From: Pseudomonadota bacterium
Lineage (GTDB): Bacteria; Pseudomonadota; Alphaproteobacteria; Rhizobiales; Beijerinckiaceae
Direction: 5' to 3'
Length of the DNA: 64,000 nucleotides
Assembly (NCBI GenBank): GCA_021781815.1
Contig: JAJXWB010000006.1
Coordinates: 1-64,000, forward strand
Below the pieces are notes generated by a model. It worked only from the letters and a program-made list of their open reading frames with translations, was not told where the DNA came from and made no database searches. Made by a program: the position numbers and the translations under genes. Below are positions 25,441-43,223 of this stretch, piece after piece. Position 1 is the stretch's first letter. Each line of letters starts with the position of its first letter.

Positions 25441-25517
25441 GGCGGGGTAGCTCAGCTGGCTAGAGCACGGGAATCATAATCCTGGGGTCGGGGGTTCGAG
25501 TCCCTCCCCCGCTACCA
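25441..25517 (+). tRNA. tRNA-Met (CAU), CCA encoded
   Basis: Cloverleaf GGCGGGG-TA-GCTC..GAGC-A-CGGGA-ATCATAA-TCCTG...GGGGGTTCGAGTCCCTC-CCCCGCT-ACCA; anticodon CAT. Confidence 0.95.
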
Positions 25518-25629
25518 TCTTACCCCGCACTCCTTTGACCCTGTTGGGGTATGCTTTCTCCCCTAAGAGGGCCGTGAGTTGCCCGGTGATGTCGACCTGA
25601 ACCCTTCCGGGCTTGGACGAATCACGGGA

Positions 25630-25990
25630 CTTTCCAGCCACCCGCGATTGTCGACCTGCTTGCCGCGAAGGGTCGAGATTGGAAGGCTCTGGTCCCCGTC
25701 GAGGCCGAGCATGCGCTTGAGGTCGGGCATGCGATCGAGGCGCTCGCGCAATTTCTCGGCCTCGGCCGTCGCCTGATGACGACGGCGCGCCGGTCCACCA
25801 CATAGACGAGCCGTCGCGGCAATTGCGCGCCATGCGCAAGCGCGATCAGCCAGATCGCCATGACCGAGATCTTGCCAAGGCCGGTGGGAATATCGACAGC
25901 GCCGGGAATGTCGCCCCTGGCGAAATACTGCTCGTAAAGCCGCTTCTGCCAGGAGAACGGTTCGAAGCGGGTCAGTTTTTCAAATGCGTA
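25630..25990 (-). pseudogene. Remnant of Cas3-like CRISPR helicase (N-terminal part, frameshifted and truncated)
   Basis: Two adjoining frames read FEKLTRFEPFSWQKRLYEQYFARGDIPGAVDIPTGLGKISVMAIWLIALAHGAQLPRRLVYVVDRRAVV // DQATAEAEKLRERLDRMPDLKRMLGLDGDQSLPISTLRGKQVDNRGWLESP; re-joined by adding one G near 25775. Confidence 0.6.
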
Positions 25991-26254
25991 TCAAAAAAAT
26001 AAATCCACGATCAACTGTCCAAGTCGTCTGTCGCGGTAGTCTCCCTTACGTGCGTTGCGAAGTCCGCTTGAATGTGTCGGCGGTGACCGTTACCGCCGAT
26101 TGATGTCGCGTCTTGCGACAGGATCCCCGCCGCTTACGGGCCTTCACCCTGTCCAGACCCGCGCCACGTCGGGCATAGGCGAGTGTCATCCCCGCCTCCG
26201 GGCGTTCGGATCTGGCCGCATTCGCGGACCATCACGATCCGTCGGGTTGGCCCG

Positions 26255-42497: not shown

Positions 42498-43223
42498 ATG
42501 AAATTTTCAACAATGACCGCGGTTGCAGCTCTGATGCTGGGGGTTGGAGGATTTGGCGCAACCGCAAATGCGGCTCCTGCAAAGCTTGTCGCATGCAAGG
42601 TCGTGTCGATGACCGTCGCCTCGGCCGACAAGCCTGAAGGCAATGGCAGCGTCTCCCATGCTTCCGCCGCCAAGCCAGAAGGCAACGGCACGGTCTCCCA
42701 CGCTTCCGCCGACAAGCCTGAAGGCAATGGCACGGTCTCCCATGCTTCCGCCGACAAGCCTGAAGGCAACGGAACCGTCTCCCACGCTTCCGCCGACAAG
42801 CCTGAAGGCAATGGAACCGTCTCCCACGCTTCCGCCGACAAGCCTGAAGGCAACGGCACGGTCTCCCACGCTTCCGCCGACAAGCCTGAAGGCAATGGCA
42901 CGGTCTCCCATGCTTCCGCCGACAAGCCTGAAGGCAACGGAACCGTCTCCCATGCTTCCGCCGACAAGCCTGAAGGCAATGGAACCGTCTCCCACGCTTC
43001 CGCCGACAAGCCTGAAGGCAACGGAACCGTCTCCCATGCTTCCGCCGACAAGCCTGAAGGCAATGGAACCGTCTCCCACGCTTCCGCCGACAAGCCTGAA
43101 GGCAATGGAACCGTCTCCCATGCTTCGGCGACCAGGCCGGAAGCTAATGGAAATGTGATCGTCGCACGAATTGAAGGCCCTACGCCGTGCGAAATGCGCG
43201 TGCCGGTTCCCTCAAGCCGCTAA
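42498..43223 (+). CDS. Secreted tandem-repeat protein of unknown function (12 x 14 aa)
   Basis: Signal peptide MKFSTMTAVAALMLGVGGFGATANA; AGGAGG RBS; ADKPEGNGTVSHAS repeated. Confidence 0.8.
   Translation: MKFSTMTAVAALMLGVGGFGATANAAPAKLVACKVVSMTVASADKPEGNGSVSHASAAKPEGNGTVSHASADKPEGNGTVSHASADKPEGNGTVSHASADKPEGNGTVSHASADKPEGNGTVSHASADKPEGNGTVSHASADKPEGNGTVSHASADKPEGNGTVSHASADKPEGNGTVSHASADKPEGNGTVSHASADKPEGNGTVSHASATRPEANGNVIVARIEGPTPCEMRVPVPSSR
42624..43127 (+). repeat. 42-bp in-frame tandem repeat, 12 complete units plus degenerate 13th
   Basis: GCCGACAAGCCTGAAGGCAAYGGMACSGTCTCCCAYGCTTCC repeated head to tail. Confidence 0.97.

Follow-up and report, generated by a model that had tools for sequence, protein, structure and literature searches.

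In the window (the whole stretch of DNA that was analysed, 64,000 nucleotides from a member of the Beijerinckiaceae), a tRNA-Met gene on the plus strand is followed on its 3′ side by two gene relics that lie antisense to it. The nearer relic is the tail of a large serine recombinase, and the farther one is the beginning of a type I-G cas3 gene (cas3g). Both are on the minus strand and abut without any spacer. The features are:

25441-25517, plus strand: tRNA-Met (CAT), found by ARAGORN and matching Rfam tRNA
25629-25477, minus strand: relic of a large serine recombinase (its last ~50 codons), 76% identical to the protein of locus L170
25626-25633, minus strand: junction of cas3g codon ~125 with recombinase codon ~532, the two overlapping by ~3 bases at most
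26008-25630, minus strand: type I-G cas3 (cas3g) pseudogene comprising the first ~125 codons, from profiles, tblastn and alignment
25777/25778, minus strand: one-base deletion at which the frame changes; intact homologues read VVDQAT here
25868-25882, minus strand: Walker A reading GLGKI instead of GLGKT/S, from translation and alignment
25993-25991, minus strand: in-frame TGA (relic codon 6), from translation, and given as '1 TGA' inside the profile match

Identity and decay of the cas3g relic

About 125 of ~900 residues, the first seventh of the gene, are left in the relic, which begins at a probable GTG start codon (26008-26006) and ends with '...VDNRGWLESP'. The initial annotation had placed a frameshifted cas3-like helicase fragment at 25630-25990; its end near 25630 stands, but the homology starts earlier, since the GTG at ~26008 opens 'MDLFF*YAFEKLTRFEPF...' and similarity to cas3g reaches back to it across a TGA that had been missed. 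The two peptides quoted in that annotation are indeed encoded on the minus strand in two frames, with the one-base loss between them. Alone, the first peptide gave E = 5.6e-24 against TIGR02621 and 3.2e-25 against PADLOC Cas3g, and the second gave 0.0025 and 0.016-0.025, respectively. When linked by an X in place of the frameshift, the two matched TIGR02621 (NCBIfam) with E = 1.1e-34 and 120.4 bits, and PADLOC Cas3g with 5.1e-34 and 116 bits, values that exclude a chance match. The TIGR02621 score stays below the cut-off of that profile (400 bits) because only profile positions 6-129 of 854 are present in the relic.

By this match to the subtype profile, the encoded fragment is read as type I-G (formerly I-U) Cas3, i.e. 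Cas3g, as had been proposed for its N-terminal helicase region. It shares with type I-G Cas3 the N-terminal helicase start and the motif I region, the RRLVYVVDRRAVV and STLRG..DNR.W signatures, and the start position of intact proteins. Pfam reported ResIII only, at 23.2 bits, which by itself would also suit a non-Cas helicase or a restriction-type ATPase; such an origin is refuted by the best Cas3g models, which scored 111-120 bits against at most 13.6 bits for non-Cas helicases, and we give it practically no weight. Moreover, the relic matches intact cas3g genes by tblastn and, over its full stretch, shares 61-69% identity with most of the family's cas3g genes. As the median nearest-neighbour identity among intact homologues is 72% (alignment of 71 proteins), the decay was probably recent. 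In a tree of the relic fragment and the 71 intact homologues, the relic was left unplaced because the forks were too weak.

As judged from its sequence, the relic is a pseudogene with four lesions, namely the nonsense codon, the one-base deletion, the altered Walker A and, as the fourth, the loss of everything beyond '...DNRGWLESP'. To place the lesions, the N-terminal regions of the 71 intact homologues were aligned, and 44 columns of this alignment are near-invariant. The relic breaks two of these 44 columns and intact homologues break 0-2; the two are the Walker A threonine and the aspartate of VVDQAT, the latter lost through the one-base deletion. Translation and this alignment bear out the earlier reading of GLGKI, and the threonine occurs in 71/71 aligned homologues, a count that holds partly by construction, since GLGK[TS] was the pattern used to select the homologues.

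The fact that four separate lesions occur together makes a sequencing error unlikely. In a draft genome of 60 contigs, an intact gene might have been misread or misassembled, but the lost base does not lie in a homopolymer, the truncated end is cleanly fused to another gene family, and no second piece of cas3g was found in the genome (3.79 Mb), so that we regard this explanation as highly improbable.

In contrast to type I-G Cas3, the relic is devoid of Walker B, the second helicase domain and the HD nuclease, the last of which is C-terminal in the Cas3g of locus L038. Its end, at 25630, precedes Walker B. In a studied type I-G effector, Cas8g links Cas3 to Cascade, and mutation of either Walker A (K39A) or Walker B (D164A) of Cas3g stops the DNA degradation smear (PMC9638904). 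The cas3g relic is without function now. One could imagine instead that the fragment is retained as a short protein, e.g. a truncated Cas3 interfering with Cas effector complexes, and both the degree of identity to the cas3g genes of the family and the small number of broken near-invariant columns would suit such a role; against this, its frame is interrupted at codon 6, shifted further on, changed in Walker A and finally run into the recombinase tail, leaving this role a very slight chance.

The recombinase tail at tRNA-Met

The cas3g homology stops near 25630 because the second relic begins there. Its frame reads SRDSSKPGRVQVDITGQLTALLGEKAYPNRVKGVRGKMVAGEGLEPPTPGL and continues into the tRNA-Met antisense, with a stop codon at 25476-25474. 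The tail corresponds, at 76% identity, to residues 532-581 of a 581-aa open frame in L170, a protein with Resolvase, Recombinase and Zn_ribbon_recom domains; such domains were found in both relatives that were scanned. Intact relatives of the recombinase are frames of 561-583 aa that sit beside tRNA-Met, and their last residues are likewise read from the tRNA antisense. The family's large serine recombinases that lie at tRNA-Met (L170, L171, L175, L176) have in common with the window tail the C-terminal ~50 residues (63-76% identity) and a C-terminus encoded across the 3′ end of the tRNA, whereas the Resolvase, Recombinase and zinc-ribbon domains are gone from the window, and Pfam gave no match for the tail. 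A query with the tail matched 38 of 298 genomes of the family.

We regard the tRNA-Met as the integration target. In Mesorhizobium, ICEs and IMEs are found next to tRNA-Met, and a few elements carry serine recombinases; a type I-C system has also been described there on an ICE (PMC8627217). The earlier suggestion of an eroded genomic island at the tRNA is strengthened by a recombinase tail that had not been seen. A repeat of the tRNA 3′ end, as expected for attR, was looked for within the window and not detected; it may be lost, lie outside the window or be too short to detect. No DNA similar to 25518-26254 was found on plasmids. In two related genomes (G003 and G004), the upstream side of the tRNA is common with the window and the directly adjacent downstream side is not, which is as expected of an integration hot spot; due to this difference downstream, an empty site is not cleanly readable in them.

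The lost type I-G system and the resident type I-C system

Intact type I-G operons usually begin with cas3, next to cas8g-cas7g-cas5g and with cas4-1 and cas2 nearby. The order in L038 (Nitratireductor sp. XY-223) is cas3g, cas8g, cas7g, cas5g/csb2, cas4-1, cas2 and the array, and the type I-G loci of the family have the same gene set; in L178, cas4-1 and cas2 are divergent. Within the window, tblastn returned no match for cas8g, cas7g, cas5g/csb2, cas4-1 or cas2, and the other parts of a type I-G system are absent from the genome. Most type I-G arrays that were fetched have repeats ending in CCTCATTGAAGC; no cluster of such repeats occurs in the window or the genome, where four isolated one-mismatch matches lie on four contigs, none of them near the relic.

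Array-like repeats at 42624 of the window were rejected as a coding tandem repeat. The stretch 42624-43108 consists of a 42-base unit (ADKPEGNGTVSHAS) within the gene of a small protein with a signal-peptide-like start, and a simple CRISPR finder would take it for an array.

The initial annotation had seen neither an array nor other cas genes, which is correct for the window but not for the genome, as contig C30 holds a complete-looking type I-C system. Cas2c, Cas1c, Cas7c, Cas8c and Cas3c were identified by profile, Cas4 and Cas5 were recognised by eye from the open frames (the cas4-1 query also matches the Cas4 region), and three repeats lie at the contig end. The Cas1 of this system is the only one in the genome. 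The second-best TIGR02621 match in the genome, 62.6 bits on C30, is the type I-C Cas3c and was discarded as a candidate for cas3g. Since a type I-C system is present, the cas3g relic belongs to a second system, and the proposed loss of CRISPR-Cas narrows to one of two: the type I-G system is gone and the type I-C system is still held. The two visible type I-C spacers matched none of the fetched loci. A different serine recombinase (556 aa) lies ~3 kb from the type I-C locus and a tRNA with CAT anticodon 5 kb from it (both at L169:12042-14106), possibly marking a second island.

Among the six genomes of the genus, cas3g occurs in this one only, and comparison with the five others gave no intact type I-G copy at this tRNA-Met. 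In the family, 10 of 397 genomes have cas3g, and the aligned region is identical within the pairs L059/L180 and L060/L182. Plasmids of other bacteria carry the gene as well; no Cas3g match came from viral contigs or phage records. This patchy distribution, together with the occurrence on plasmids, indicates that the type I-G system moves.

Two further loci, like the window relic, keep the 5′ part of cas3g alone after loss of the operon. In a family member (G144; L184:11446-11832), cas3g breaks off behind '...DNREWLDDP', a few codons at most from the break in the window relic, and is followed by a transposase-like ORF. In a Nitrospirales MAG (L005:9592-9950), a truncated cas3g is fused to a single type I-G repeat, apparently by a deletion from cas3 into the array. 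Unlike the window relic, neither involves the tRNA-Met recombinase. Operon loss that leaves the 5′ end of cas3g has thus happened more than once.

A probable single island and its proposed deletion

We consider it likely that one island, with a tRNA-Met serine recombinase and a type I-G operon, was followed by a single deletion that left both relics. An integrative element with a tRNA-Met-specific serine recombinase would have entered at the 3′ end of the tRNA-Met, with the type I-G operon within or beside it and cas3g as the first gene, transcribed toward the tRNA. A single illegitimate deletion, with its ends at cas3g codon ~125 and recombinase codon ~532, may then have taken away what followed in cas3g, most of the recombinase and presumably cas8g, cas7g, cas5g/csb2, cas4-1, cas2 and the array. 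With cas3g at the head of the operon and the relic directed toward the tRNA, the rest of the operon and the bulk of the recombinase would be lost in one such event. The part of cas3g that is left also bears the nonsense codon, the frameshift and the Walker A change; we infer the shared element, the single deletion and the order of the lesions from the arrangement of the relics.

This history is favoured because the relics abut on one strand, relatives of the recombinase sit at tRNA-Met, the type I-G system moves, and comparable leftovers exist (L184 and L005). Counted against it are the missing attR in the window and the fact that no intact element with both the recombinase and type I-G genes was found among 80 cas3g loci or the family loci L177-L184, within the stretches examined. 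The same lack of a combined element would suit two unrelated relics, in which the tail stems from an older element and the cas3g fragment came later, via a different element or a rearrangement. In a sister species of the genus (G002), a recombinase tail of the same kind lies at tRNA-Met without cas3 (L172:7829-8080; G002:C167), so the window tail may be an older, independent relic. Moreover, about 16 of 39 tail matches listed in the family are short frames, a few of them near contig ends, which indicates that such islands commonly end as a leftover tail and that lone tails often persist. However, the two relics lie on the same strand, in the order that one island would give and with no intervening sequence, and separate origins are therefore unlikely in our judgement, though to be weighed seriously. 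Beyond the single-island history, a more general proposal would be that islands using the tRNA-Met serine recombinase carry type I-G systems in the family, and that these are more readily lost where a resident type I-C system makes them redundant; this we hold to be doubtful.

Gain and loss of CRISPR-Cas systems on mobile elements is well known, and the relic is ordinary genome decay that fits known biology. Beyond the initial annotation, the analysis adds that the genome is not CRISPR-free and that the recombinase tail explains the end of the cas3g homology. The locus thereby offers a clean example of one CRISPR-Cas loss with its breakpoint, next to an integration hot spot at a tRNA and with another subtype retained in the genome, and it is a reminder that CRISPR relics can sit in genomes that still have a system.
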